Shown here: positions 5,801 through 31,529 of the stretch, one piece after another | Layout: the number at the start of each line of letters is the position of its first letter | How positions within the stretch are numbered: the stretch's first letter is position 1 | Assembly: GCF_025698545.1 (NCBI RefSeq) | Contig: NC_068567.1 | Location: forward strand, 61,249,205-61,313,204 | Origin: Gossypium raimondii | Taxonomy: Eukaryota; Streptophyta; Magnoliopsida; Malvales; Malvaceae | Length of the DNA stretch: 64,000 nt | Direction of reading: 5' to 3' | Made by a program: the position numbers and the translations under genes | Notes under the pieces: model-generated | The model's database searches: none | The model's input: the letters and a program-made list of their open reading frames with translations, nothing else | Told to the model about the DNA's origin: nothing

Positions 5801-8588
5801 AGAGTGTATTGTATATTATGATTGCACTCGAGACTTGACGGTAAATAGGGTTTTACTGGCATATTATCTGAAACTTTGTACTGATTAGGTTAAGTTGGAG
5901 GTCAAACTTGCTGCTGGAATATGTCCTGAAGAAATAACACTCAAAGAAGCAGAAAATGCTAACACAAGATGGATTGTTCTTGACAGGTATGGCCAACTAT
6001 CCTTTTCATTGCTTCTGTTTTTTGCATTCTAATGCATACAATTTCTCAAACTGGAAAAAGGGTATTAAATTTGAATATTGATTAGTGTTTTTTTTATAAT
6101 CTTGATTATTGACAGCCACTTAAAGAAGTACAAAATGTGTATATATTGGAATGTTGAATGCAATGTTGCAGTAATGAAAGGAAAAGATGTTGCTACTTTA
6201 ATGCCATCAAGGGCTCCCAAGCCTGATTGCTCTCCTGTAAGTAGTGAACAAGCCGATGCTGAAACTTGGCCCGATGGTCGATCCCTTAATGATCAAGAAA
6301 CCGGAAATCAGAACGTGATTGAGGAAGGGGAATCATCGATACAACCAGCTCCACGGGGTCCCTCTTGGGGTCCATTACAATTTAGACCTGGTTTTCCTCG
6401 AGAATTTTTGTTCAGTGAAATCGAAGAGATTACGAACGGCTTCTCTGATATCCTTTGTCAAGAGGAAAACCTTAAAGTTTACGAAGGGGTATTGAAGAAT
6501 ACACCTGTTATAGTCAAATCTATTCAAGACGATGAACAGTTTTGGTCGATGCTTACGATCCTCTCCCGTGTACGCCACCGCAATATCATGAACATCATTG
6601 GATATTGCTGTACCGCCACGAACAGATTACTCATATCCGATTATCCATGTTTGTATAGTTTTGCTATGAAGTTGCAATGTAAGATACCTTCTTCCTTTGT
6701 TCCCCCGTTTCAGTTTCCACAGCTTTAGAGCAAAACATTCTTAATATTCTGCAGGTGATGTCTCTGCTATTAACCTTTCTTGGAGAGCAAGGTGGTATAC
6801 TGCTACTGAAATAGGCGGTAGCTTGCGCTATCTCCATGAAGAATGCCCCGACGGACCGATCGTTCATCAATCTGTTTGTTCATCTAGCATTGTTTATTCT
6901 CATGGCTGCTCACCTATGGTAAGTAAATCTAAAACTATATCTTTTGCATTAGAAATTTGCATACAGATTACTGACTGATGTTTATGGATTTGTATTACCA
7001 TATTGAAGCTAAGCAATTTTATGACAGCCAAGTGGTACAAAGGTGATGTTCCTTTTAACGGGAATTCAACTGGAAAGTAAGAAAAAATTTTCTCCATAAG
7101 AGTTGAATTGTTACACGTCTTTGCCTATAACTTTTAAGGTGAGATCTTATAAGGTCTTTTTTAAATCAACGGTAATAGTTAAAAGATAAAAATAAGAGTT
7201 ATAACTGTTTGATCAAGCCATGTTAGAAACTAAGAAATTATACGGAAGACCTGAAACTTATCAAATCCGTTACCAGTATGTTGCTTTTCTCTAGAAATTA
7301 GTTTCTCTCACTCTTTAGTATTAAAACCAATTAAATTAGTTAAAATGCGAATTTTACAGGACATGATCAACAATGTATTGATGTTTCTTTTTCTTCCTTT
7401 TTATTTTAACCGTTGATTTAAAAAAATCTCACAAGATCCCACTATAATGTAATCTTTAAATAAATATCACCCATGTCAAAATATTTGTGATAATTTTGAA
7501 CCTGTTTTTGGTGGATGAAGATGCCCAAACCTAGAGGAAGACAAGCAACTTTATGTGGATATACATGACTATGGATTGTTTCTTGTGGAGCTTATTTCTG
7601 GAAAAGTTGCAGGTTGCTTTCCACATGAAAATGAGGGTCAGTCCTTGATAGACTGGGTAAGATTTTTGTTCAAATTGCTTCCTATGGTGACGATTTTCAA
7701 TTGTAATAAGGAGGTTTCAGTAAAAGTATCATGAATGCCTCTGTACTAAAAATCAGATTGTATTTTGTTCCATCTACTAAAAAATTAATAAATTAATCCT
7801 AATACGTTAAATCAAAAAACAAACTGATCCTTTTGTTAAAAATTCCATTCATTTCTATTATTAAAAATCAATCCCTATACATCAACATCAGATACACAAA
7901 ACACGTCTTGTATCATTGTTTGTTTATTCTATCAACCACACTAGTTTTTAACAATATAACTGGATGAAATTTTAATGAAAAGATCAACTTTCTCTTTAAT
8001 CTAAAATAGATAGACTAATTTGTCTATTCTTTGAGTAGAGTAGACAAAATACAATCTACCTTCCAATATAGGAGCTTCCATAAAACTTTTATAGGAGTTT
8101 CTTGATGAAAATGATTATGAATTATCACATATGTTCTAAGATATTTTTAGGCAGCTAGAAATATCGAACAAATATAAGCTATGTTACCCGGATTTAGATG
8201 AATGTTAGATACTAACATTTGTCTATCACGAGGTTATACCAACGTCTGACTATGTATTCGGATGACATTAATTCTCTTTATACTTAAATGAAGGCACTGC
8301 CGCTTCTAGAAAGCAGTTCAGTCACTCAACTGATGGATCCAAGATTGGCGGACAAAGAAGATGATTTGAAGGTGGTTCATTGTATGGCTCGGGCAGCTTT
8401 GCTTTGTCTGAAAAATGATTCCGGTCGCAGTATTTCCATAAGCGAGGTAAGGTTTTCTTTTCATGATCACATTCTTGCTTGCAATAATAATACTAGTTGG
8501 AACTCCCCAGATTTTAAGAGTTTCCTGCAAATTTTTGCAGGTCTTAGCTGTGGTTCGAGGCGATCAGCATGCAGTACTTCAGCTTTGA
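2851..8588 (+). CDS. USP-like / receptor-like cytoplasmic pseudokinase
   Basis: Nine exons: 2851-3067, 5105-5241, 5889-5986, 6116-6678, 6755-6918, 7009-7076, 7521-7656, 8294-8446, 8541-8588, giving 527 codons plus stop with matching phases. Residues about 10-55 (VIVVIDGKRSKG, LDWALKHVV) look like the start of a universal stress protein domain. A kinase-like domain begins near residue 255 (FLFSEIEEITNGFSD). It keeps a candidate VAIK lysine (VIVKSI) but has no glycine-rich loop (CQEENLKVYEG). The HRD catalytic loop reads HQS with no downstream Asn, and the DFG position reads NFM. The family (plant kinases with an N-terminal adenine-nucleotide alpha-hydrolase-like domain) normally has an active site, so phosphotransfer is unlikely; a scaffold role is inference. 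The first ATG of the open frame was chosen. Intron 1 is about 2 kb and intron 7 holds a MITE. A decayed gene is an alternative. Confidence 0.8.
7720..8092. mobile_element. Palindromic MITE, family A (pseudokinase intron 7)
   Basis: Starts GTAAAAGTATCATG and ends CATAAAACTTTTAT. The inner arms match the other family A copies in inverted orientation. Flanks resemble an imperfect target duplication (aggaggtttc on the left, aggagtttc on the right). It lies wholly within the intron between exons 7 and 8. Confidence 0.75.
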
Positions 8589-9211
8589 GTCGGTCCAAGA
8601 GCCGTATTCATGAAAAAAAAAAAAAAAAGAGAACGCTTGCTTGTAAAAGAAGAATATTGTTGAAGGAATAAAGAGAAGCACTTACATATATTATAAAGCA
8701 GCTTGTTTGCGAGTGAAAATTATGAAGGTTGCGGAGTTATTAATATCACTTTTTAAAAATGATTGCATGAACGGAAACCAACCCAAAAACTTGTCTCTCC
8801 TATCGAAAAAACTGTGTTGTTCCCATTCAAAGCTTCTACTTTACAAAGCATCGATTTCCAGGTGAAAATTTACGGAAATCAGCTGAGGGAAGTGAATCCT
8901 GTCCACCTTCACTTCACAAGGTATTATCTAATGGTTTGTTGAGTGAAGCTCAAGAAAAGAGGTTGAAACATGCTTTTTACATGGACGAAAGGTCTTCCCT
9001 ACAAACACAAACAGATCCTAAAAGCATTGATATTTTGATATGAAATGTCTTTGGAAAAACGAAAAACTTGGAACACAAGAAAGAAGAAACGTTAACACAA
9101 AGGAATTGGATTTCGGAAAATCAGAATTATCATTACCTGCAACCAGATTATTTGATTGGAATTCTTCTATTCAATGTAAACTGCTCCATTGAATGCTGAC
9201 CCATCCGTGAT
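8589..9211. other. Intergenic between two converging genes
   Basis: Carries the 3' UTR of the pseudokinase gene (+) and of the PPR gene (-). A 16-base A run lies at about 8613-8628, just after the stop codon. No separate gene was recognised. Confidence 0.6.
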
Positions 9212-12200
9212 CTAACGTTTAGGCTGTGACCCTTTCGACATTATATGTTGCTTGGATAATATCTCTGCAGTGAGTTGGCGTCCAAGTAACTCAGAGTTCT
9301 TAAGAATCAGGTTTCTTGTCGTTGAATCAACAGCATATCCTTGTCCTGGCATCCACTGCAGCAACTGCAGGAGCAATTCCTTTTTTTCGGGCTGAGCAAT
9401 ATAACGGGATACAGCAGTCTGAAACAGTCCCTGTGTAAAACCGAATAAATTGAATGATTTGATCATATTATGAATTATAACACACAGCCAAACCTGTATC
9501 AAAATCAAGAGATATTGCTCCAATTCCATGGAAGTAGAACTGGGTCTAATTGTGTTCAAAAACCTATGTTGCTCGGACTCTTCATTATTCATGAAGTACC
9601 CATGTTCAACACTGGTGTTTGACACACCGATACAAGGATATGACCTCCAAAAATCCTTCAAATACATGAAAAAACTTAGAAAAACCATCCATACCTGTAT
9701 ACAACACACACCCGAGTCCGAGTAACATAATCAGAAACTATTACCTATTTTTTAACTTGACCATCTTTTCTATGGCAATAAAAACTAAAAATAATGCCAC
9801 TACAGTACCGATGTATCCATGCTAAGGATCTCCAGGGTATAGCTTTCACGGACTGGAGATATTTAATCCAGCAGATGGATTATAACATTAATATGATCTG
9901 TTCAGCTCTAAGTATACCTACATACACCAAGCTCATGATAATCAAACGCAGATGCAGTCCATGCATCAGAATACAGAACAGCAGAGACATGGCAAGTTCA
10001 TAGAAAAGTAATTTCAATTCGTGAATCAAATTAATTAAAGTCCATAAATACCTACCTGATAAATCTTGCACCCAGAACCATGAATAACCTTCAGGACATC
10101 ATTTATCAAGTTGATATTACCAAACTTCATGAATGCACTTGCGAACTTCTTTATAGCAGGCTGAGAGATGTGTTCTGCATTATCCTGATAAGAGAAATAA
10201 TTTGAGAGAAAAAAATTGATAGTAAAGAAGGGGCTGATAGTTCTATCACATACCTTGACAACTACATATGCATCTTTGAACAGTTTTCCAGCTATAAGAA
10301 TATGTAGAATTTTCTCATGAAGGGCTTTACACATTGTTCTTTTGCTATATCTCAACATATTGTAAACCGAAAATGCTTCAGAATGAGCCTTCATTTTACC
10401 AAGTTGAAATATTAAGGAGCAGCAAAGTTCCTGCAAATAGAATAGAATTGTATGGTTATAATGATTTAACTTATTTCCATAAAAGATGCTGCCTACACGC
10501 CAAGCGTAGAATTCCCATTAAAGTAAAACCAATAACTTAGGTATGTTTTCCGGAGAGCTTTTAATGCGACCCTTGTTATTAAGTAACATGTCCACTGCCA
10601 AAGCAGCAACTCGAATAAACTTAAGCAAACAACGTTCACATAACGACAAGAAACCGCCTTCAGGCATATTTGCAGGAAAAAAAAGAGAGTATAGTTGGAG
10701 ATAACAATTGTATAGACAAAAAGACTTGTTCCAGTAATTTGTATTATGACAGGCAACCAAGTATGGAGTCCCGTAACTGGAAGTACAAAACATTGCTATG
10801 GAAGAATGGACCAAGTCCTAAGAGTGTTTCATACGATGCGCAAAGTGAAGAAAAACTCATGGGATTACGTTAGTTATGCTGAACCGATGCTGGACTATGA
10901 TAACAACTCAGGAACCCACGCCACCATTCATAATAACATCTAAAAATTTGAAAGTCCTGTACCTCCTCCGGATGATATCCTTTACCGTGCATGTCCTGCA
11001 TGATCTTATAAGCAAGAAGATATAGTTTCTCCTTACAGAAATACTTTATTAGGATATGAAAAGTGCTATAATCCGGACTGATTGCAAGTTCATCCATTTT
11101 CTTCATTGTTTGCATTACACTCTCCATATCGCCTGCTCTACAGTAAGCACAAAGCATCGTATTTAACATAACCAGGTCATACTTGTTATACTTGGTCTCG
11201 AAATCTTGAGCCAACTTCTTTGCCTCTTCAAAAAGCTCGCTTCGACACATAGCTGAGATCATGATGCTATGCGAGTATCCATCTGAAGGAGACAAATAAG
11301 TTTCATATACTTGGAATTGGAACCAAACCAGGGTAAAAGTACCATAGAAAATCCCATACTAAGAGTTAAATTGCATTTTGCTCCCTATACTCAAAAAATG
11401 AGCAAATTAGTCCCTGTGCGTTAGATCGAAGAGCAAATTGGTTCTTTCTATTAAAAATTTCATCCATTTTTACTATTAAAAACTGGCATAACTGACAGAA
11501 TAACTAGACAATGACACATGATATGCCACATGTACCTAATGTTAACATACATGGACCAATTTTTAACAATAGAAATGGATGAAATTTTTAATAGAATGAC
11601 CAATTTGCTATTTGGTCTAACATATAGCAGTTAATTTGCCTATTTTTTGAGTAAAGAGGGCAAAATGCAATCCGAATCCTAGTACAAGGTCCTCCATGGT
11701 ACTTTTACTAAACAAGGGGAGATGAAACTTCAATATAACAAGGTAAGCGTGCCTTAAATCATTTGCCAGTGTTCCTTGAACACTCAGTACTTGTAAACTT
11801 ACCGGATTTGACACGTTTTTCATGCATTTCAGCAAAAACTGATCTTGCTTCATCAAGGCGCCCAGCTTTCGAAAGACCATCCATCAATAAACAGTAAGGC
11901 ATCTGCATAAGTGTGTGCATATTACGAGCACTTAGTTACAAAACTAAGCAAGGTTTTCAATCACAAAAGCAGCCAATGAAGCTTAATCATATAAATAAAT
12001 GCATAACTTTTATCATTTTTCACATCTCATATTTGACCAGGCACAAAATGAGAGGAAATTATCGAAGTACCTCATCTTCAGCATAACCTAAAGCTTCCAA
12101 TTCAGATAATAATTTTCTCGATTTTTCAAACAAGCCTCCTCGAACATACACCTTTAACAAAGTAGTCAGTATAACCTGCAAGAATTACAAAACAAAATAA

Positions 12201-16411: not shown

Positions 16412-19400
16412 ATGGAGGAGAAACGCCGGGACGCGGGGAACTCACCGGCTGGACCGAGCTCAGCCGAGCTGGAGCCGGCAACAACTCGCCGTCGAGCTGG
16501 AGCACAAAAGAGGAAAGCTAATTCTCTTTCCGGGTCCAGCTCATCATCGACGCCGTCGAAACGGGCTACACGGGAGAAGTCATCTAACTTGATCTCCCAC
16601 TCTTCGATCAACCATAACGGTCCTTTAACTAGGGCTCGCCAAGGAGCGCCTAGTGGAAACCTAGCCTTGGGTTTGGGCTCCGGATTCGGTGGCGCGAAGC
16701 TTGAGGAGAGGATTTTGGTTAAAGAGAGTGTGAAGGCTGAAGATTTGGAGGAATTGAATAAGGCAAGTGAAGAGTTGGAGGCTTTGGAAGCTAAGATTGA
16801 AGCTGAGTTTGAAGCTGTTAGGTCTCGTGACAGTAATGCGCACGTGGTTCCTAATCATTGCGGTGAATTTTCTTTTTCTTTGTTTGTTTGCTGGGAAAAA
16901 ATGGGTACGAAACGGGAGGGAAATCGAAGATTTACTTTTAGAACTCAAGTGAGCTGAATTTCTTCTTTGGGGAGCTAGTGAATTGGTGAAATTAGATTGA
17001 ACTTTTTTCCTGTTGATTTAGAAGTTAAATTCAGTTTGACTTGAATCTTAATTAAATGGAAACAGGGAAAAAAATAGTGAGTTCTTAAGTTTTATTGAGT
17101 GCTTAAATAGAGAGTTTTCTTTCTTTATTTGTTTGGACTTATATGATATTATGAATGCTGCGATAATGTCCTTATATAATAAGGATTTTATTATGTTTAT
17201 TTGCTTGAGAGTGCTTTCATTCAACTGTAGTCTTAAATGTCAATGCGGTTTGAATGGTTGCTATTCATACATTTGATCGGTAAACAGAAAGATTTGAAAT
17301 GGATGAAATGTGAAAATGTTAATTCTTTTTTAAATTCTTTAATATTATGGTTTTCTCACAAGGAAATGATAATAAGTATTCGGGACAGTTTCTTGTGCTC
17401 ACATTTTTCATTAACAGAGTGCAGACCAGGGCTCTGAATAAATTGGCTTTCATGGAAGCCTCTTAATTTGATGTTGTAAATATTGAAGAAAATGAAATAT
17501 TAGACTCTTTGGTGTTTGATATTGTTGTCAATTTTGGTCTTCATCCTTTTTTGTACTCACAGGATGGTTTTCATGGAAAAAAGCTCACCATGTGGAGGAA
17601 TGTATATTACCTTCATTCTTTAATGGGAAATCCCCAGTGCGTACCCCTGATGTGTACTTGGAGATACGTAATAGCATTATGAAGAAATTTCATGCAAATC
17701 CGAGTGTACAAATTGAGTCTAAAGATCTGCCAGATATTGAAGTTGGCGACTTGGATGCAAGGCAGGAAGTACTGGAGTTCTTGGACTACTGGGGTTTGAT
17801 TAACTTTCATCCATTCCCTCCAGGTGATTCTGCCGTGGTCAGTGCTGATGGTGATTGTGACGGGATAGCGAAAAAGGATTCTTTGCTTGAAAATTTGTTT
17901 CATTTTGAGGTGATTGAATCGCGCCCATCAGTTGTTCCCAAAGCTAACCTTTCAACTCCATCTATGCCATCTGGGTTTCTTCCAGAGTCTGCAGTTCTTG
18001 ATGATTTGTTGAGACTTGAGGGACCATCTGTTGATTACCATTGCAACTCTTGTTCAGCTGATTGCTCTCGGAAGCGCTACCATTGCCAGAAGCAGGTTCG
18101 TGAATAGTGACTTGACTAATAAGTCTTATCCTTAAAATATTTAGTGCACTATGCAAGAGAATAACTGCACCAATTATGTCTGTTCAGGTTCTCCCTATAT
18201 TGTTATTAAATCATGCCTGGGTGGAATTGATATATGTATTTTGTATCTACATATGCATGTTATATTCAGTTTTATGTTCCTAAGAGAGCAAGAGGGAATT
18301 CTACCAATTTATGCATCTTCTGTTTAGGCCAAACGGTAACGAAAAATCCACAAGCCTTTCCGCTTCTCATCCGACTGTTGTAGAAATAGGTTTTCAGCAT
18401 GTAAGAAATCAACTTGAATCTTTTGCACCATCTGTACAATTTGTTCTATGTTTGATGCTCTACTTGCAACAATAATGTAATGAGCTTTGAAGCTTTGTAT
18501 GAATTGGATGATCACAATGGCAAACGTAACTAATTTAGTAAATTGGTTTATGTTTATTTATTGACTTATTCTTACATTTCTTTATGATGCTAACTATGTT
18601 TGTATTTGACAGGCAGATTTTGACTTATGTACTGATTGCTTTAACAACCGGAAGTTTGGCTCTGGCATGTCTTCTTCTGATTTTATTCTCATGGAGCCTG
18701 GTGAGGCCTCTGGCCTTAGCGGCGGGAAGTGGACAGATCAGGAAACTCTCCTTCTTCTCGAGGCACTAGAACTTTATAAAGAAAACTGGAATGAGATTGC
18801 AGAGCATGTTGCGACAAAAACCAAAGCTCAATGCATACTGCACTTTCTTCAAATGCCAATTGAGGATGTATTCTTTAATTCTGATGATAATATAGACACT
18901 AATTCCAAAGAAACATCTGCACCTGCTGTAGTGACTGATGAAACATCTGTCCCTAAAGATGTCTCTGAAGCAACAGAGACTAAGACTACTTCTCAGGAAG
19001 ATCAGGTTCCTCAAGAGGACCAGACCCAGACTACACCCGTGGATGCTTCAAAACCTGAAGATGAGAAAGAAAAGAGAGAGAGTGAGGAAATGTCAAAACC
19101 TGAAACAGGAACCGACATAAAATGTGCTCCAGAAACATCAAAGCCAGAAGAAATGGATGAAGCAAAAGATGGACAAGACACCAAAGAAAATTGTGCAATT
19201 ATGGCTCTAAGGGAGGCATTCGAAGCTGTTGGTTATAATTTAACATCTGAGAGTACACTCTCATTTGCTGATGTGGGAAACCCCATCATGGCATTGGTGA
19301 GTTGCATATCAGGGAATCATGTATTTGTGTTTGAATAATTTTTAATGGCTTTATCAAGTTTGATTCAAATCAGAAGGCATGTACATGGCTTTATTTCAAT

Positions 19401-21770
19401 GTGCTAAATAAGCTGATTGGAAAAGATTGAGGACGTGACTTGATGTGGTCCTACTTAAACACTTTGACCTGATTTCTTAACCCCCAAAGATGTTAGTCTT
19501 TTGATTCTATTTATGTGTCTGTTTATATATATATTTTAATGAAATTGGTGCCAAGCGTCCTTGGATTTACATTCATATTTTCCATGCTTGGTCATAAATG
19601 AAGGACAGAACCACAAAATGCTGCATTTTGCTTTTTCTGCTCCATTGCAGTAGCTTTTTCAAGGTCTTTTTCTGAATCCACTTCTTTGTGAATGATTGTT
19701 ATGCCATACAAAGTCCTTTATCTTATGCACATGCTATACTTAATGATGAACAATCTTCATTGCTTCAGTCTAGATGTTTTGCTTCAAGTAGACTTTGCAG
19801 CTTTTCTCTTGACATATTCCACTTTTCATTATTTTCATCTATCGATTTGGTTTGATATGTTACAACTAATTTTACTTCCTCTGCAGGCAGGATTCTTTGC
19901 ACGCCTTGCTGGGCCCAAAATTGGTGCTGCTTCAGCACAGGCTTCACTGAAAGCATTATCTGGTAGTTCTCCCAACATTCAACTGGCTGCAAGGAACTGC
20001 TTTCTTTTGGAAGATCCACCAGATGACAAGAAGGAACAAACTGGTTCTGAGAGGTATGTAAACCTTTTCTCAAGCTTATATTTCCTTGCCACTTTGTGGC
20101 TCTTATATCTGATGTGAGTTAGAGTTTGGCAGTGTTGTCAATGATGTCGGTAATCAGGATGCTCAGAATGTCGAAAATTCAGAAAACAAAAGCCTCAAGG
20201 AGGACAAGTCCACCCCAGTTTTGGATCAGAAAAGTTCATCGAGCAACCATGCAGACCAAAATGCTGAAACTTCTCTTCCTGAAGAAAAGGTGACATCAGC
20301 TTCACCTAATTGCCTATCCACTGATAAGAAAGAGCCAGGTACTTCTGCAACCAGTAAGGAAGCTAAAAAGGCTAATCAATCAAAAGATCATGAACCAGGT
20401 GTAATGAGGGGATCAGATAACTTGGCATCCCAGGTTCCACCAAGTTCTGCGGAGGAGACTGGTGGGAAGGAAACCTCAGCACAAGAGTCTTCTCAACGAA
20501 CAGAGGTTGTGAAGGAAGTAGAAATGTCCGAGTCTGTTCCATTAGAAAAGAATGAGCCTTCTGATGCAGCTGCATCAGAGCCAGTGGCAGAGCTATCTGA
20601 ACCAACAGAGGCATTGAAAAATGTAGAGACGGTTTCTGGCTCTCCATCTGGAGCAAAGAATGAGCAACAACCAGTTAAATCAAGTTCTGGTGGAGAGATT
20701 TCTCAGCCTACAAAGGCATCAAATGATATAGAAATGGTGTCTGATTCACAGCCATCAGAAAGGAGTGAACCTCAGCAACCAGTCACATCTAATTCAGTAA
20801 ATGAAAATGGAACAATCACAGGTTTCTCTCCTTTTTCCCTTGAACTTTTTGTTCAGAAGCTGATTGTACTGAAATTTTAAGTAATATTTTGTGGGAATAC
20901 ATATAAATATTTCGCAAGTCAGATTGAAAATATACATGGAGGGCTAGATGCAATAATTGGTCCTATAACGTTAAGCATAGCAGCTTGGAAATTTGAATTT
21001 TGATACAGAGCAATGTCTTTATGGTGTCTACTAAAACATAAAAAGTTTATTATAAAAACTGCATTTTGGAAAAACGGGTACTTTTTATCTTCTCATTATT
21101 CTTATTATTCTTGGCAGATGTGATTAAAGAAGGTAAAAGTGAGAGCCATACCTCTACAGAAACAAAAGATGATAGTAGCATTGACAAAGTAAAGCGTGCT
21201 GCCGTAACAGCACTCTCAGCAGCTGCAGTGAAGGCCAAACTTCTTGCAGACCAGGAAGAGGATCAAATCCGGAAACTTACGACATCATTAATAGAAAAGC
21301 AGGTAATTTAGTTGCAAAAGCAAATGCAGACTCCTTTTAAGATTTACACAGCTGGAGCAAAAATTTGAGTTCTTTGAGGCTTTAATTCAATGCAGTTTTC
21401 TAAGATGGAAGCCAAATTAGGTTTCTTCAATGAAATGGAGGGTCTCATGATGAGGGTAAAAGAGCAATTAGACAGATCAAGGCAAAAGCTTTACCATGAA
21501 CGAACTCAAATTATTGCAGCTCGACTGGGCCTACCAGCTTCCTCCTCTAGAGCAATGCCACCAGCAAATACCGCAAATAGAATTGCAACCAACTATGCAA
21601 ATTCAGTCGCAAGGCCTCCGATGAGAACAACTGCCGCAAGACCACCAATGTCAAGACCTATGGGGCCTATGGCTCCTACCTCATCCAACCCATTTGTATC
21701 TACAACAGTTGCAGGAAGTTCAATCCGGCGTGCTAGCCAAGACAACCTTTCTTCAGTCAGAACAAAGTAG
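16412..21770 (+). CDS. SWI3D: SWI/SNF complex subunit SWI3D
   Basis: Seven exons: 16412-16862, 17563-18095, 18613-19296, 19887-20053, 20133-20821, 21118-21302, 21396-21770, giving 3084 bp and 1027 residues. Domain order is that of SWI3D: a basic Ser-rich N-terminus; SWIRM at about 143-240 (HVVPNHCGWFSWKKAHHVEE to LEFLDYWGLINFHPF); a ZZ zinc finger at about 310-345 (CNSCSADCS, YHC, DLCTDCF); SANT at about 366-415 (GKWTDQETLLLLEALELY). A long acidic Glu/Ser/Thr-rich linker follows, then an Ala/Lys-rich coiled coil and dimerisation region (from about 845) and a Pro/Arg/Met tail. The ZZ finger separates SWI3D from SWI3A-C. It acts in the nucleus as a core subunit of BRM/SYD-type remodelling complexes. 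The ATG was chosen over an in-frame GTG two codons upstream. Pieces of exons 2, 4, 5 and 6 are copied at 25774-26310. Confidence 0.96.
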
Positions 21771-24136
21771 TCTCTTTTACTTGTGAATAGAATTTGTCAT
21801 CCATTCTTATACGACGGTCACCAATCATGAGGTTTTGCCAGGTGAGTACCTCTTTCGCTTAAGCGTTGCCATTCGTTTCAGGAACTTTTAAGAACTTAAG
21901 ATGTTTCCCTGTGATAGTTACAGCGCCAGCATCAAGAGCGTTGACTATCTCCAACCGACCGAATGGAGCTGGAATCTCATTGTCTTGGGAGGAAGGAGCA
22001 GATGGTTATTGTTCTCCCTTCGTCCCTACTCGAGTTAAAAACGTTTAAGTCATCTAACCTGCAATTTTTTTTACTGTGTCTGGAATTTTGTAAGGATAAT
22101 AGGTAGTTTGGGTACTCTTGCTGAATTTAGTGCAAAAATTAAACATTCATATAACCTTGGTTACAGAACTCTTTGGTTGTCTTAAGGTGCAAGTGTGGCT
22201 GATGTAACCCATGTAATCTATTTATTTATGATATTTTAATGTTATGATATTTTAATGTTATAAATGATTGTAAATCTTTGGATTGGACCTCCTTTCATCT
22301 CTGCTGTTCTCTAGAAACTTTTAAAAAGCTCCCTGTTTTCATGAACTTGATCTTTTAGGTGAAATGCTTGGCTCTAGGGGCAGAGTGTTTGATCTTAATT
22401 GAGTTGAAGAGATTAAATCGAGTTGAATAACTTTTTTCGAGTTTAACATAAATTTGGAATTATATATTTATGAACTCTTTCAAAGTAAAATAAGATAACT
22501 TAGTATAATAAATTTGATTTGGTAATTTTGTGTATTTAAGGCTTCAAATTTATTATTTATCATTTTTATTTTTAAAAATTAAATATCTTTTATAAATTTT
22601 TGAGACTTCTATAAATATTTTGAAATTTTGAAGGTAGTTTTGAAATTTTGTAGATTTTATAAAGGATCAATTTGCCAATTTCAAAAATTGCGAAGGATCT
22701 AATGAGTTTTACATCAAAAATCAAACTTGAAAAATTGAATAATCCAAATAATTAGATTTAACTAATTTAAAATTAAAAGAAAAATAAATTGTTTTTAAAG
22801 TTAAATAGTGTTCCTCATTCATATATTTAGATTTTCTTTATTTCTTAATAAAAATTTACATTTAATGCAAAGATCGTATATATAAATTTATACGTCAGTA
22901 AATAAATCACAAGAAGTCACTTATTAAAAAATATAATAAGAATCATTTATCTTTAATGTGTTTGAAATTTATGTATTAATTTTTCTATAAAACTATTTAT
23001 TAATTTATTGATTATGCATTTTATTATGACAATCTGATAATGATATTGTAATTATCAAGAAGATAAAATGAAATATTCATTATAATAAGAGTAAGATAAA
23101 TTATAGAAGTAGTATACTAGGAGGGCTCAACAGGTATGTTATTTAGTAGATAAATATCTTTATTATATGCAGTTTTAATTGGATTTTTATTAAATTTAAA
23201 ATGGTTTTTATATAATAATAATAATAATAATAATTCTCTTACGAAATATATCAATATAATCCCTAGGATTCGCGTGGGGATTTTTAATAAAAATAATTTT
23301 AAAATGAAACCATAATAATACTAAGAAAACGAATAATATTAAAATGAAACTAAAACAATTACTAAATTTATAATTTTTTAAAAAATAGAAATATATTTCC
23401 AAATTTTATTAAATTAAATTATTATTTTCAACTATTACCATTTTAATAATAAATTAATTTGTTTTAACTATTAAAAAGGGTAAACTATAAAATTGATCAC
23501 TTATGTTTATGTAAATTTACATTTTGGTCACTGAACTTTATTAAATTATTTGACTACTAAAACTATTTTTAAAAAAGAGAGAGAAGAAATTCATGTTTGA
23601 CTAACTATTTTACTTCAGGGACTAGATAAGTAATTTACCTCAAAGTGAAAGAAGTGAAATCTTAACGTGACCCTTTCTTTTTCTTTTCTTTTATTATTAT
23701 TTATTTCCTTTTTATTTTATTTTATTTTATTATTACTATTTATTTTTAATATAAATAAAATAGAAGCTTAAATTTATATATTACAAAGTCTTCCGATTTA
23801 CTTGGGACACTTTTTTTATATATATATTACATAAAATAAAATATTATATTAATAAATTAATTTATCACCAACGTAAGAAAATATAAAACCATTAATGAAA
23901 ACTTATCTACTAAAATAAATAGACAGATTATAATATGACTCCTCAAGCAACCTATTTCTTGTTGTACAAGTAATCGTGGGCTTATATATCATCTTACGTG
24001 TGCTTCCATGTTGAACTAACAAGATTAGAAAGCAGTTCTTAAAAGTCGGCACTCTACCGACAAAACAGAGACAGAGATTACGATATTGAGCAGACACAAA
24101 ACAGAGTGAGATTACGGCAACAAAAACAAAGCAACG
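21771..24136. other. Intergenic, very AT-rich
   Basis: The SWI3D 3' UTR occupies the first few hundred bases. The rest is mostly A/T with an (ata)n run near 23213-23233 and pyrimidine-rich runs at 23670-23760. At 23480-23650 there is a short degraded relative of the family B foldback ('gggtaaactataaaattg', 'ttttggtcactgaac'). The promoter of the CAF1 gene must lie at the right end, but I could not place a convincing TATA box. Confidence 0.55.
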
Positions 24137-25555: not shown

Positions 25556-25690
25556 AAAGGTTTCCAATTCGAAAGTGCTGAATGTTATGTTTGCAGAACT
25601 ACTTTATGGTTTTTAACTTACATATGTTCCTCTTCCCCACTCTTTAGAGCATCCTTTGCTATGCATTGGAAAGCTTCTTCCACGTTAACA
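25556..25690 (-). pseudogene. Copied 3' piece of the RABG3 gene
   Basis: Matches 28389-28520, which is the 3' end of coding exon 6 plus adjoining intron 6 of the RAB GTPase gene. Shared landmarks are 'ttcgaaagtgctgaatg', 'gaactactttatgg' and 'gcattggaaagcttcttcc'. The copy lacks about 6 bp near 25595 and has scattered substitutions. It includes intron sequence, so it was copied from DNA. It encodes only a fragment. Confidence 0.88.
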
Positions 25691-25773
25691 CTCGGATTTG
25701 TACACTATGGAAAACGTACATATATCTTTGTATGCATAAATTGAGCATCCTTCGCTATGAAAAACGTAATAGG

Positions 25774-26310
25774 ATTATGAAGAAATTTCATGCAAATCCG
25801 AGTGTACAAATTGAGTGCCAGATATTGAAGTTGGCGACTTGGATGCAAGGCAGGAAGTATTGGAGTTCTTGGACTACTGGGGTTTTATTAACTTTCACTG
25901 AAAGCATTATCCGGAAGTATTGAACCACTTTGTGGCTCTTATATCTGATGTGAGTTAGAGTTTGGCAGTGTTGTCAATGATGCCGGTAATCAGGATGCTC
26001 AGAATGTTGAAAATTCAGAAAACAGAAGCCTCAAGGAGGACAAGTCCACCCCAGTTTGGGATCAGAAAACTTCATCCAGCAACCATGCTGACCAAAATGC
26101 TGAAACTTCTCTTCCTCAAGAAAAGATGACATCAGCTTCACCCAATTGCCTATCCACTGATAAACAGCACTCTCAGCAGCAGCAGTGAAGGCAAAACTTC
26201 TTGCAGACCAGGAAGAGGATCAAATCCGGCAACTTACGACATCATTAATAGAAAAGCAGGTAATTTATTTGCAAAAGCAAATGCAGACTCTTTTACTTGT
26301 GAATAGAAAT
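25774..26310 (+). pseudogene. Internally deleted copy of SWI3D segments
   Basis: Built from non-adjacent SWI3D pieces in order: exon 2 (from 17673, ending at 'attaactttca'); exon 4 ('ctgaaagcattatc'); the end of intron 4 ('actttgtggctc'); the 5' third of exon 5; exon 6 from 'acagcactctcagc'; intron 6 ('gcagactc'); and 3' UTR ('ttttacttgtgaatag'). Retained intron and UTR sequence rules out simple retroposition. Junctions show a few bases of microhomology ('ttca' at the first). The frame is broken throughout, so no SWI3D protein is possible. Confidence 0.92.
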
Positions 26311-28022
26311 TGTCATCCTGAATCCATAAAATTTAATCAATTTTACTTTTTTACTTTTCCAATTCTAAAATTCCAACCATTATCCAAAGATAACAATTGA
26401 ATCCATTTGGTTAAATTCCGGCATTAGTCTTGTATTAAGCATAATCGGGTCAATCTTATTCCCTATCATTTTCGAATTTGAAAATTTCAATTTTGATGCT
26501 AACGACAATCGTTAAATTCATTATCTAACTTTTTTTTTTTTAGTATGTAGAAATAGAAACTAACATGGTTTCACATATGTGATAATATCTGTCAAATCAG
26601 ATTTTGGATATAACATAACAAATTTAAAGGCTACCATTTGGAAGATTGAAGTTTAAAACTCGAAAACTATAAGACTTAAAATTGGTTGAATTAAAGCACA
26701 AGAAATAAATCCACAACTTAATAATAAAATTTAACTAAATTCAAAAGTACTAAATATATATATGTTTGCGATAGTAAAACTAATTATGATTTTTTTAACT
26801 TCATTATGCATTGAAGGATCTTAATTAGAAGTGTTCGTGGGCTATGCCAAAGTTCGATATCAAAAAAATTTCTAAGTCAGAGCCTAGCTTAACCCAACTT
26901 GTCCAAAAAGCATACACTTCTTCTAAAACTAATAAAATAACAAAAGAATATCTTTTATATTAATATTTATATATTTTAATAATTAAATTTTCGTTAAAAT
27001 ATTTTTAAAAATCATTTAATTTAAACTTGAGTTAATCCAGCTAGACCCGAAGACAAAAATTCATTGTTTAAGCTCAACCCAAATCAATTGAATCAAATAA
27101 AATACCCAACTCATGAATAGGTCTAATCTTAAGCTCCCAAAAAGTTAGGAGGTTAAAATATTATAATGATAAGTTAAATTGGAAGAAATTTAAAAAAAGA
27201 GCAAGACAATTTTAAAATGTTTTATACTAGAAAGGTTTGAGACGGTATATTATTTAGCCGATAAAATACTCCAAAACAATAACGTTAACGTGTTGAATTT
27301 GTAATTAAGTTATAATTGCGGAATGTCTAGAGTAGATGTCTTTGATGAGACAATGATATCTATTATGGGACATATCTTATCATTCATTCTGATACAAGGT
27401 ACAGAGCCGTTGAAAGAAAAACCCTGACCCCTAAGCTGTCAACTTACCCTTGACACGTAACATTCAAACTCTCTCCACGTCTACCCTTTATAATTTCCGA
27501 CTCTTCACAACACTTCAACCTGATTGATACCACCACATCTTCCTCAGTACTCTTTCCTTATTATATCATTGCATCAACGCCCAAGTAAATGGATAAATCA
27601 TGGAAAAAATGGACCAAATTTTAGTAGCCGATTGGATTGATTTCACAAATATTCGATGATTTTAGAATAGTTTTCACAAGCTGCTAAGCTGAGATTGGGT
27701 TTTCTTTTATAAATAATGTTCATTTTACGGACAATGAAAATTAATTCTTCCACAAGATAATCTTAGTTTGAAATTATGAAATATACCATAAAATGTACTT
27801 TAAAAACAATGCGTAGGCAGTGCAGAACAAAAAACAATGTTTACAAATGAGAACATTACAGAACTAAATCCAGCCAAACCAAAAGCATTAACAGACCTTT
27901 TTTTTTTCTCACACCAACACCATAAATCCCATAAAATGGTTGGGAAACACCAAATCATTCTAAACATTTTAACCGTACTTATTGGCGGAACAGGAAAAAA
28001 TAATGAACATGCATGGTATCTT
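26311..28022. other. Intergenic, AT-rich, with a promoter-like patch
   Basis: Mostly unremarkable AT-rich DNA. From about 27430 to 27600 the base composition changes: it holds 'tgacacgtaac' and 'tccacgtc' (ACGT cores), a TATA-like 'tttataattt' at about 27488, and a pyrimidine/ACC-rich leader-like run. This is followed by an ATG at 27591 whose frame closes after 11 codons. No gene follows in that orientation. Confidence 0.5.
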
Positions 28023-30070
28023 TCAACATTCGCATCCGCCTGACCTTGGTTGGCTGCTGCTGCTCCCAACATCTATGGTGTCGGGCAAGTATCTTCATGA
28101 ACGAAAACAAAAACATGAAAAAATAAGAAAGTATTAACATGACTGAAAATGTTCAAAAATTAATTAATGCAAGTTTAAGAGCTAAAAAAACAAAAAATTA
28201 AACGGAGAGCCAAATAAGTCATTATGCTAAAAATAAATTCACAAACTAAACAGTCTGCAACTATGTGTCCTCAATATTAAATATTGCCATGCAAATATTG
28301 CTACTTCCCGGTTTGAGAATGTACAAGCTAAACCATTGTATTGCATATCTATGTGTAGCAATTGATTGGTGTTACCGAGGGCTTTTTTTTCATAATTCGA
28401 AAGTGCTGAATGTTATGTTTGCAGGAGTAGAACTACTTTATGGTTTTTAACTTACATGTCTTCCTCTTCCCCACTCTTTAGAGCATCCCTTGCTATGCAT
28501 TGGAAAGCTTCTTCCACGTTAACTCCTTCCTTGGCAGATGTCTCAAAATAGGGGATATTTCCTTTCGAGGCACACCATGCTCGGGCCTTTTTCAAAGACA
28601 CCTAGAGAGTCAAAACAATGTGGATAATTGTATCTTTTAGGAAGAAAGAGAATATCAAGTGACACTGTAAAGGAAGAATTGAAAAATACATACCACTCTA
28701 CTGTTTCCACCATCAACATCGATTTTGTTCCCCAAAACAACAAACGGGAAATTCTCAGGATCCGAAGGGCTTGCCTGCAAGGTTTCTCAAATTGTCATTT
28801 CTCTACCGAATAAATCCCAGAGAGTTGATAGATGGTTTTCATCTGTATTCAGAAGTTCAGAATATATACCTGAATAAGGAATTCTTCTCTCCAGTTGTTA
28901 AGGTTGTCAAACGATTTCATTGAGTTGACATCATATACAAGAACACAACAATCAGCACCGCGATAGAAAGCAACACCTAGGCTCTGGAATCTTTCCTGGC
29001 CAGCTGTGTCCCAGATCTGAGGGGGAAAATTGATGAATTTTGAGCTAAGTGGTCACTCAAATAACACAAAAAGGCTAAAAGAAAAGTTAGATAATTTTAG
29101 AATGCAATGCTACAATCTGCTAGAAAATACTCAATAGTGATCCATGAGGTTGTCTAATGCTAAATCACAGAAGTCTAGTCAACAAGTGGAGCAACATAAT
29201 TCCCTAGTCAATAACCACAAATCCGCTCCTCGTCAATTGATCAATGATATAACTAAAGAAAAAAGCAGCCATGGAGTTTTTCAATGAATAAAAAGAAAAA
29301 AGTTAGCATTGGCAGTTATGAGTTAAATATCATAGAGAAAAGATGCATTTGTCACAGATCTTGGATGCAAAGCTAGAACTTGGTTCAAGAACAAAGGAGT
29401 AGGTATAAAAAACCAAGCACTAGTCAATAGCACACCATAGTCGTTCATTGTAGATTAAGATCTCAAAAAAATAAACAAATACAGCAACTAAAACAATCTC
29501 ATCGAGATGTTAAAAAGTAGAGATCAGTGTGAAATCTAACCTGTAAGGTAAAAAGCCTATCCTCAAACTGCACTTCCTTTGTCAAAAAATCAGCTCCAAT
29601 CGTCGCCTTATACTGATTGCTAAATTTCTTATTTACATATCTAAAAGTAAAATGTAAAGGCAAACAAAACCATAACTAATAGTAAAAAACAAAACCATAT
29701 CTAAAAGTAAAAAGTAAATTTCTTATTTACATATAAAAAAAAACACTTCATTTCTCTGCTTTTCTCAATAATTAGTAAAAAACGACTGCTGCAGGATACT
29801 GATTCATCAAAGACGTCTTCCCTACCCTGCAAATTAAAGATCACAAATCACAATCAAATCATAATCATTCGACAACAAACGAGAGCAGTAATTCGAATAG
29901 AAAGATCCGTACGGAAAACCTAGAAACGAATTCTTTCAAAATACATGCGAATATATACGCATAAAATTGAACGGACAGGCTTATAATAATAGCAACAAGA
30001 AAAAAGAAAACACTAACCCGCTGTCGCCGAGGATGATGACCTTCAAGAGGGTTCTACGGCGAGAAGGCAT
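28023..30070 (-). CDS. RABG3: Rab7-type small GTPase, RABG3 subfamily
   Basis: Seven exons in reading order: 30070-30018, 29826-29800 (27-bp microexon), 29640-29541, 29016-28870, 28774-28694, 28601-28456, 28092-28023. Total 624 bp, 207 residues. All G motifs are intact: GDSGVGKTS (P-loop, split across exons 1 and 2), the switch I Thr in [22 protein letters not shown] and ETSAKEG. The tail ends GGCEC, a double-cysteine signal for geranylgeranylation. RABG3/Rab7 proteins act on late endosomes and the tonoplast in membrane fusion with the vacuole. The last exon is needed: without it the frame stops at EEEDM and lacks the prenylation cysteines. The exon 6/intron 6 region has a copy at 25556-25690. 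The paralogue letter cannot be assigned. Confidence 0.95.
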
Positions 30071-31529
30071 CGTAAAGAACACTAAGGAATCGGCGGATGT
30101 ACAGATCGATAGAAAAAGGAGAAAAAAATTTCTATATTGAAACCTAGTGAGAGGACTGGTGGACTTGTTTGTCTGGCAGGAAAATTGGCTGAAACTTTCT
30201 AGCGTGTTTTTCAAAGTATTTTCTAGCTTTTTTTTTCTCTCTCTCTCTCTTATGCAAAAGCTGGAATGACCTGTAATTTGTGAAGGAATTGAGGGAAAGT
30301 TTGGGTGACAGCTTTGTTTGATTGTTTGTTTCGTTCAACATGAGTGAACCTATGAGTAACTGATTTGGTGGTAGCTTGTTGATTGGTCTGTTATTTATGG
30401 AAAAAGATTTAAAGGTAACGTTATCTTCCCTTGTTGCTCCTGTTAGACCAAATTTACAATAGAGCTGGGCGGACCAGGGTGGGGCTGGGTTTTTCTAACC
30501 GACCCGATTGAAAATTTATGTTGATCCGATCCGATTTCTACATTGTATGACTTGCGGGGAAGATTATTAGGTTTTCTCGGTCGAATTTTTTTGATGAAAC
30601 TAATTTAACTGATTATAACCTACAAAAATTTCATCAGCGAAACTAAGTAAAAGGTGGTCACCACAATAATTTCATCAGTACAAAAAATAAACATATATAT
30701 GTAAAACGGATATATTGAATATTCTTGAAAAAAGTTTTAGATTCATAACATTTATGGATTTATTCATCTGTGATGTTTATAGTGTGACATACATTAATCC
30801 TGAGTAGAAGATGGACTAAATACGCATGACTCATATACTTTAATGTAAATAAAAAATTGAGTTCAAATAGATAAGAAACTGAAAACTAGTGTGTTGGGTA
30901 TACGACTTCTGTAGTATGTAGCATCATTTACAAAAGTGAAATTCATAACCTAACTAATGGGTAAATGATATTTTCTCGTCGACATTACATGATAGATAAA
31001 AAGTAAATGTGGTCATGGGTCGTTTGTCTTTGTGACAAATGACTTTATTACTATCTAATAGTAATTGACTTTTCATTAAGGAAGATATAATTGTTGCTAT
31101 AAGATAAAATAAGATTATATTGGGGGAATAGATTTATTCCAAAGAGATTAATAATATCTTATGAGGGTAATACACTTATGACAAAGTCATTGGATGAGCA
31201 TTGATTAGGTAGCTTTCATAATGATATATAATTAGAGAGAGTTCAGTTATGATACTATAGTGAAATGACTTCGTGACTAAATATGTTTTTAATTAATAGG
31301 CAAAAAGTTGAAACTTAATTATAAATTATTTGAACCCTAATTAAATATATTCAATCGGTCCCTCCGCTAGTTTATTGAAACCATAGACGAATTGCACATA
31401 AAACCAAATAAACAAAAATGAATGAAAATGACAAAGATAAAGAAATGAATCACATTAACAATTGAATGCGTTTTCACCATATTTGAATTACTATTTTTAT
31501 TAATTATAATAAAATAATTGAAGTTTAAA

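Follow-up and report, generated by a model that had tools for sequence, protein, structure and literature searches.

A patchwork of SWI3D and RABG3 fragments in Gossypium raimondii as the probable remainder of repeated local duplication and decay

An island of gene fragments between SWI3D and RABG3 in Gossypium raimondii is probably what decay has left of local duplications that repeatedly took in SWI3D, a CAF1-like gene and RABG3; one deletion joint in it carries templated filler. The stretch analyzed, called the window below, comprises 64,000 nucleotides; W marks positions in it, and bare numbers give its positions within the source genes. From left to right it contains SWI3D, the CAF1-like gene (CAF1-A), the end of a RAB copy, the joint, a SWI3D copy, an intergenic stretch and RABG3.

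Self-BLAST of the window matched the pieces of the island to both neighbours at 91-96%, W25566-25689 to RABG3 and W25764-26318 to ordered, intron-retaining pieces of SWI3D. An earlier note on this DNA had reported pieces of RABG3 and ordered pieces of SWI3D, and the matches (E 7e-4 to 3e-109) confirmed them as DNA-level copies of both neighbours that keep gene order. Because the pieces include intron sequence and the start of the SWI3D 3'UTR, their source was DNA. All six lie on the same strand as their sources and are thus direct-orientation copies beside the source. The note had missed the CAF1-like ORF, which sits between SWI3D and the island and belongs to the duplicated material, as well as the further copies in the genome and the scrambled 74 bp that separate the RAB part from the SWI3D part. 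The features are listed below, with exon and intron labels read from open frames and splice sites rather than from transcripts.

17666..21802, + strand: SWI3D source of the pieces, exon 2 to the start of the 3'UTR
W24137..24988, + strand: CAF1-like ORF (CAF1-A), 283 aa, open; PF04857, E 2.8e-14; relative of CAF1-family ribonucleases
W25054..25445, no strand: flank of the CAF1-like gene, common to the window and C3:59.50 Mb, with a short dispersed repeat
W25446..25565, no strand: 120-bp segment preceding the RAB copy in the window, on C11 and at C3:59.50; stands where RAB exon 7 would be
W25566..25689, - strand: truncated RABG3 end piece (exon 6 / intron 6) = 28394-28523; 93.1%, E 1e-51; oriented as the RABG3 gene at 28.0-30.2 kb
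W25690..25763, no strand: joint with templated filler, RAB part on its left and SWI3D part on its right; simple extension of neither flank
W25764..25897, + strand: SWI3D exon 2 piece = 17666-17809; 91.0% with a 10-bp gap counted, E 7e-55
W25894..25918, + strand: start of the SWI3D exon 4 piece = 19943-19967; 92%, E 7e-4
W25894..25924, + strand: the same start of exon 4 plus a window-specific scar; about 125 bp present in C11 lost
W25925..26163, + strand: SWI3D intron 4 and exon 5 piece = 20089-20327; 95.8%, E 3e-109
W26163..26294, + strand: SWI3D exon 6 and start of intron 6 = 21206-21337; 96.2%, E 1e-57
W26285..26318, + strand: start of the SWI3D 3'UTR = 21769-21802; 94.1%, E 9e-9; end of the block, as in C11
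W26319..28009, no strand: intergenic stretch common to the window and C11 = 7894-9465 of the C11 stretch starting at 6929001; contains dispersed repeats
28394..29908, - strand: duplicated segment of RABG3; exon 1 and the last exon not included

SWIRM, Myb and SWIRM-assoc_1 domains were matched in three exons of the left-hand source gene. These matches suggest SWI3D, the subtype D coming solely from the name used in the earlier note. Among the open-licence papers searched, none paired Gossypium with SWI3D. From its reading frames alone, with the C-terminus YLPDTIDV...GGCEC, the right-hand source appears to be RABG3. These frames run leftwards, the last exon ending in GGCEC and the stop codon lying at 28023-28025.

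We searched the window's own assembly (750.8 Mb, 281 contigs) with W25500-26400, SWI3D 17600-21850 and RABG3 28000-30250. The SWI3D query gave 21 matches and the RABG3 query 38, and all counts below are lower bounds. Besides the gene itself and two paralogs on C4, SWI3D fragments occur at at least four loci: the window, C11:6.936 Mb, C3:59.26 Mb and C3:61.33 Mb. RAB segments, besides the gene and its more distant relatives, occur at at least three loci, with 124 bp in the window and 1359 bp each on C11 and at C3:59.506 Mb; the two longer copies span gene positions 28395/28396 to 29908, i.e., 1.5 kb of the gene. The C3:61.33 Mb sister lies 56 kb from the window and, like C3:59.26, on the opposite chromosome strand, and the 59 Mb and C11 loci are remote. 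Thus, the sisters are not simple tandem neighbours. Longer versions of the window's SWI3D copy are found on C11, at C3:59.26 and at C3:61.33, and of its RAB copy on C11 and at C3:59.50. By the earlier note's own account, its reading would be overturned if the island were a decayed duplicate and another copy kept the pieces in a more continuous form; the longer sister copies largely match that description.

In the reading we favor, the DNA around SWI3D, the CAF1-like gene and RABG3 would have been duplicated locally more than once, with breakpoints inside genes, giving an array of the order SWI3D - CAF1-A - RAB copy - CAF1-B - SWI3D copy - RABG3. C11 and three places on C3 (59.26, 59.50 and 61.33 Mb) would also have received copies of parts of this array, by a route of movement that we infer. 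Redundant copies would then have decayed by deletions, most of them with a few bases of junction overlap. In the window, a deletion with a presumed size of about 3 kb, from RAB 28523 to about SWI3D 17660, would have removed the rest of the RAB copy as well as CAF1-B with its flanks. Some 70 bp of filler would have been inserted as the ends were joined, in the style of polymerase-theta-mediated joining, with short stretches on either side serving as templates for part of it.

The sister loci overlap in a way that suggests this order. Read in one common orientation, C3:59.50 holds CAF1-A, the RAB copy and CAF1-B, and C3:59.26 holds CAF1-B and the SWI3D copy. On C11 the order is CAF1-B, SWI3D copy, intergenic stretch, RAB copy and CAF1-B. 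At C3:61.33, CAF1-B and the SWI3D copy are followed by the CAF1-B upstream region again, in direct orientation, as tandem duplication predicts. The array would account for all five loci if C11 went through one more tandem step. The RAB copy - CAF1-B - SWI3D copy part is not intact at any locus, so the array is put together from overlapping loci. A single tandem duplication was considered and dropped, since the junctions of RAB 29908 with the CAF1-B upstream repeats and of the CAF1-B flank with SWI3D need at least two rounds. Several observations count against the array: in each of the three RAB copies found, the 120-bp segment W25446-25565 occupies the place of RAB exon 7; divergence among the CAF1 genes exceeds the 4-7% that separates the SWI3D and RAB copies from their sources; the divergence between the window and C11 is uneven; and sister loci are inverted or remote.

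The RAB copies on C11 and at C3:59.506 end at 29908 and pass directly into the repeats upstream of a CAF1-B gene. Lacking exon 1 and the last exon, they should not make a normal Rab protein. The RAB piece of the window starts at 28394, is preceded by the same 120 bp as the longer copies and is cut at 28523; from this alignment it is best read as the end of a longer RAB copy of the kind that spans 28395-29908 on C11 and at C3:59.50. C3:59.506 is collinear with W24185-25689 at 91.1% (ungapped). Thus, the left half of the window is the same kind of array member.

The CAF1-like gene was found at at least eight places including the window, five on C3, two on C11 and one on C10, the other seven matching the window at 83-88%. 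Its full 283-aa frame is kept in two of the eight, the window and C3:61.33 Mb (dN/dS of 0.23 between them); in the other six CAF1-A and CAF1-B copies the longest ATG-started frames are shorter, at 248, 99, 109, 47, 150 and 162 aa. Repeat units of about 42 bp lie upstream of six copies, adjoining the TATA-like GCTTATATA, as found by TRF in one of the six and by BLAST and eye in the rest. A dispersed repeat near W25289-25380, about 65-90 bp long, lies in the gene's flank in the window, and the matches listed include about 30 genomic copies of it; this is the stretch that had earlier been labelled a copia-like LTR. Relatives at 67-68% occur on C4, four of five near SWI3D paralogs, and eroded CAF1 pieces occur on C5. 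The older relatives stand near both C4 paralogs (at 2.747-2.755 and 2.480 Mb), so the SWI3D - CAF1 neighbourhood predates the present duplication. On C4 the SWI3D and CAF1 genes are convergent; in the window both point the same way.

The CAF1-like gene with its promoter repeats might itself be at the heart of a duplication unit, other than a transposon, that repeatedly picked up parts of neighbouring genes at its 3' flank and spread them by a replication or repair route, the window being its birthplace. We consider this unlikely. As a weaker extension of the same idea, leftward readthrough from RABG3 would yield RNA antisense to the SWI3D copy.

For the SWI3D block, repeated duplication followed by decay is set apart from assembly in one step by the sister copies. 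The same three SWI3D junctions, 17809|19943, 20327|21206 and 21337|21769, occur in the window and on C11, and both blocks end at 21802. About 125 bp kept in C11 are lost from the window. A 10-bp deletion in exon 2 is common to the window, C11 and C3:61.33 and absent from C3:59.26. The losses are therefore nested: the 10-bp deletion in three loci, the three junctions in just two of these (the window and C11), and the missing 125 bp or so in the window alone. The same CAF1-like flank precedes the SWI3D block at C3:59.26 and C3:61.33, which carry other parts of that block, including parts gone from the window: 18095-18378 and 21038-21178 at C3:59.26, and 18946-19018 and 20407-20446 at C3:61.33. 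The 5' junction, in which the CAF1-B 3' flank is followed by SWI3D from about 17620, is readable on C11 and at C3:59.26, with slightly different remnants of 17620-17665; at C3:61.33 it was apparently trimmed by a small deletion. Across the aligned loci, the nested pattern points to one longer SWI3D block eroded stepwise.

These junctions bear directly on the template-switching repair event proposed in the earlier note, taken here as a single event of FoSTeS/MMBIR type that copied the separate SWI3D and RABG3 pieces into the site at one stroke. The order of the pieces, the templated filler at W25690-25758 and the BLAST overlaps of 4, 1 and 10 bp at the SWI3D junctions are what such an event could leave. 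The overlaps, identical in the window and on C11, also agree with the note's claim of deletions at short overlaps; at C3:59.26 two of three junctions overlap by 3 and 4 bp and the third has no overlap and 3 extra bases, at C3:61.33 the overlaps are 3 and 3 bp, and some overlap is expected by chance. However, the SWI3D junctions are common to C11, sisters with the same 5' junction keep the parts missing from the window, and the RAB piece is best taken as one end of a longer copy, cut short. We therefore rejected template-switch assembly of the whole island on its shared junctions and the longer sister blocks, and we regard an origin at one stroke as very unlikely.

Template switching fares better at the small joint. 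With adjoining bases counted, the filler includes a 17-bp RAB piece and two pieces of inverted SWI3D sequence, 13 and 11 bp long, and an inverted-repeat search found inverted arms at the joint. Exact matches to nearby sequence cover 34 of the 69 bases of the filler core (W25690-25758) at k=9 and k=10, 33 at k=11 and 16 at k=12. None of 300 dinucleotide shuffles reached the observed coverage at any of these k values, the largest shuffled values being 29, 24, 13 and 13. The longest match in the tested core is 16 bp, compared with at most 12 bp in the 300 shuffles. The match pool, used for the shuffles as well, consisted of five nearby segments of our choosing, of which sister loci or the source supplied three. 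In this way a template was found for about half of the filler. At one site the RAB piece within the filler has a C, as do C11 and C3:59.50, whereas a T stands in the gene, on C12 and C13 and in the RAB piece of the window itself; thus either a copy with the C served as template, or that piece of the window later reverted. A second scar (about W25912-25924) holds the 10-bp string GGAAGTATTG, which is also found 60 bp upstream, an observation made without a shuffle control. Only short stretches of the island look stitched from scraps in DNA-break repair. The joint is patched in the way of polymerase-theta-type end joining, with polymerase theta as the candidate enzyme.

C11 is collinear with W25764-29908 except for a replaced stretch at 28010-28393, and the shared intergenic stretch, W26319-28009, stops 14 bp short of the RABG3 stop codon. 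The SWI3D block is followed immediately by a dispersed repeat of up to about 400 bp at W26330-26720, which has more than 30 genomic copies among the matches listed, at about 65-77%. At C5:6.308-6.313 Mb, a relic contains CAF1 pieces in eroded form alongside sequence that matches W27809-27934 at 94% and, in rearranged order, W26477-27267; the part of it examined gave no SWI3D or RAB exon matches. We had considered W27766-28009 as the 3' flank of a lost CAF1 copy and dropped this, since for the most part it fits the RABG3 3' region better, ending 14 bp from the stop codon; it is linked to CAF1 flanks only by an AT-rich match of 34-37 bp.

The fuller SWI3D block on C11 and its older junction with the CAF1-B flank would suit assembly of the SWI3D patchwork there, or at 59 Mb, followed by copying into the window between SWI3D and RABG3. 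Yet the window is the one place among the loci found where both SWI3D and RABG3 amount to more than fragments; they flank the island on either side, and the intergenic stretch there leads into RABG3. A local origin needs fewer moves, and assembly elsewhere is very improbable.

That a Helitron or Pack-MULE captured and carried both gene fragments, as the earlier note also suggested, is highly improbable: copies do lie at dispersed sites on C3 and C11, and tandem repeats do stand upstream of the CAF1-B units, but the copies lack one common pair of outer boundaries, their shared boundaries are gene-internal and differ between loci, the CAF1-B upstream repeats at C3:61.33 recur directly rather than inverted, and the five inverted pairs in W25000-26700, of only 11-17 bp, include no convincing terminal repeats framing the island. 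One pair does bracket the island (25561-25577 with 26467-26483, 17 nt, 88%), its left arm being mostly RAB sequence.

Divergence from the source is 4.2-6.8% for copies of SWI3D, measured in three stretches, and 6.9% for copies of RABG3. Between the window and C11 it ranges from 2.7-3.1% for the SWI3D pieces through 5.0% for the RAB piece to 10.6% for the adjoining intergenic part, where 113 of 162 differences are transitions; methylation-driven mutation or gene conversion could account for this unevenness. A C4 paralog agrees with the window at 10 of 23 listed sites (3 of which fall in the window's own scar) where the window and SWI3D differ, and C11 does so too at 9 of those 10. At those sites it was most likely SWI3D that changed once the copies had split off, and the copies are thus not recent. 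With a substitution rate of about 3.5e-9 per site per year, a divergence of 6-7% would place them, roughly, on the order of 10 million years ago. For CAF1, dS is 0.35 and 0.41 between the window and two CAF1-B copies and 0.18 between those two. By these values the CAF1-A/CAF1-B duplications look older than the SWI3D and RAB copies, or faster evolving.

Sister copies within one genome can separate progressive decay of a duplicate from a one-step patchwork, and nested deletions put the events in order; the joint with templated filler is among the last of them. The island is an ordinary genome scar, left by a known kind of event and with no new mechanism, and we propose no function for it. It offers a clean example for classifying such islands.

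The joint resembles polymerase theta end-joining scars in plants, and a passage on Arabidopsis in PMC10923293 describes deletions with such insertions as typical of that enzyme. Compared with the scars in that passage, the likeness lies in a deletion joint with short flank-copied pieces and in microhomology at the other junctions; the scar in the window is natural and old, its filler of about 70 bp is traced for about half, and its dependence on the enzyme is putative. The sister copies bring in two further comparisons. Gene fragments are moved by double-strand-break repair in plant genomes, and the window's sisters are likewise gene pieces at other sites with no evident transposon ends, although for the C11 and 59-Mb copies this route is only supposed. 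The other comparison is with tandem gene duplication and pseudogene decay, which likewise leaves direct-orientation copies of neighbours beside their sources and erodes the redundant ones. The island differs in that the breakpoints lie inside genes and that parts of the array spread to other places, two of them inverted.
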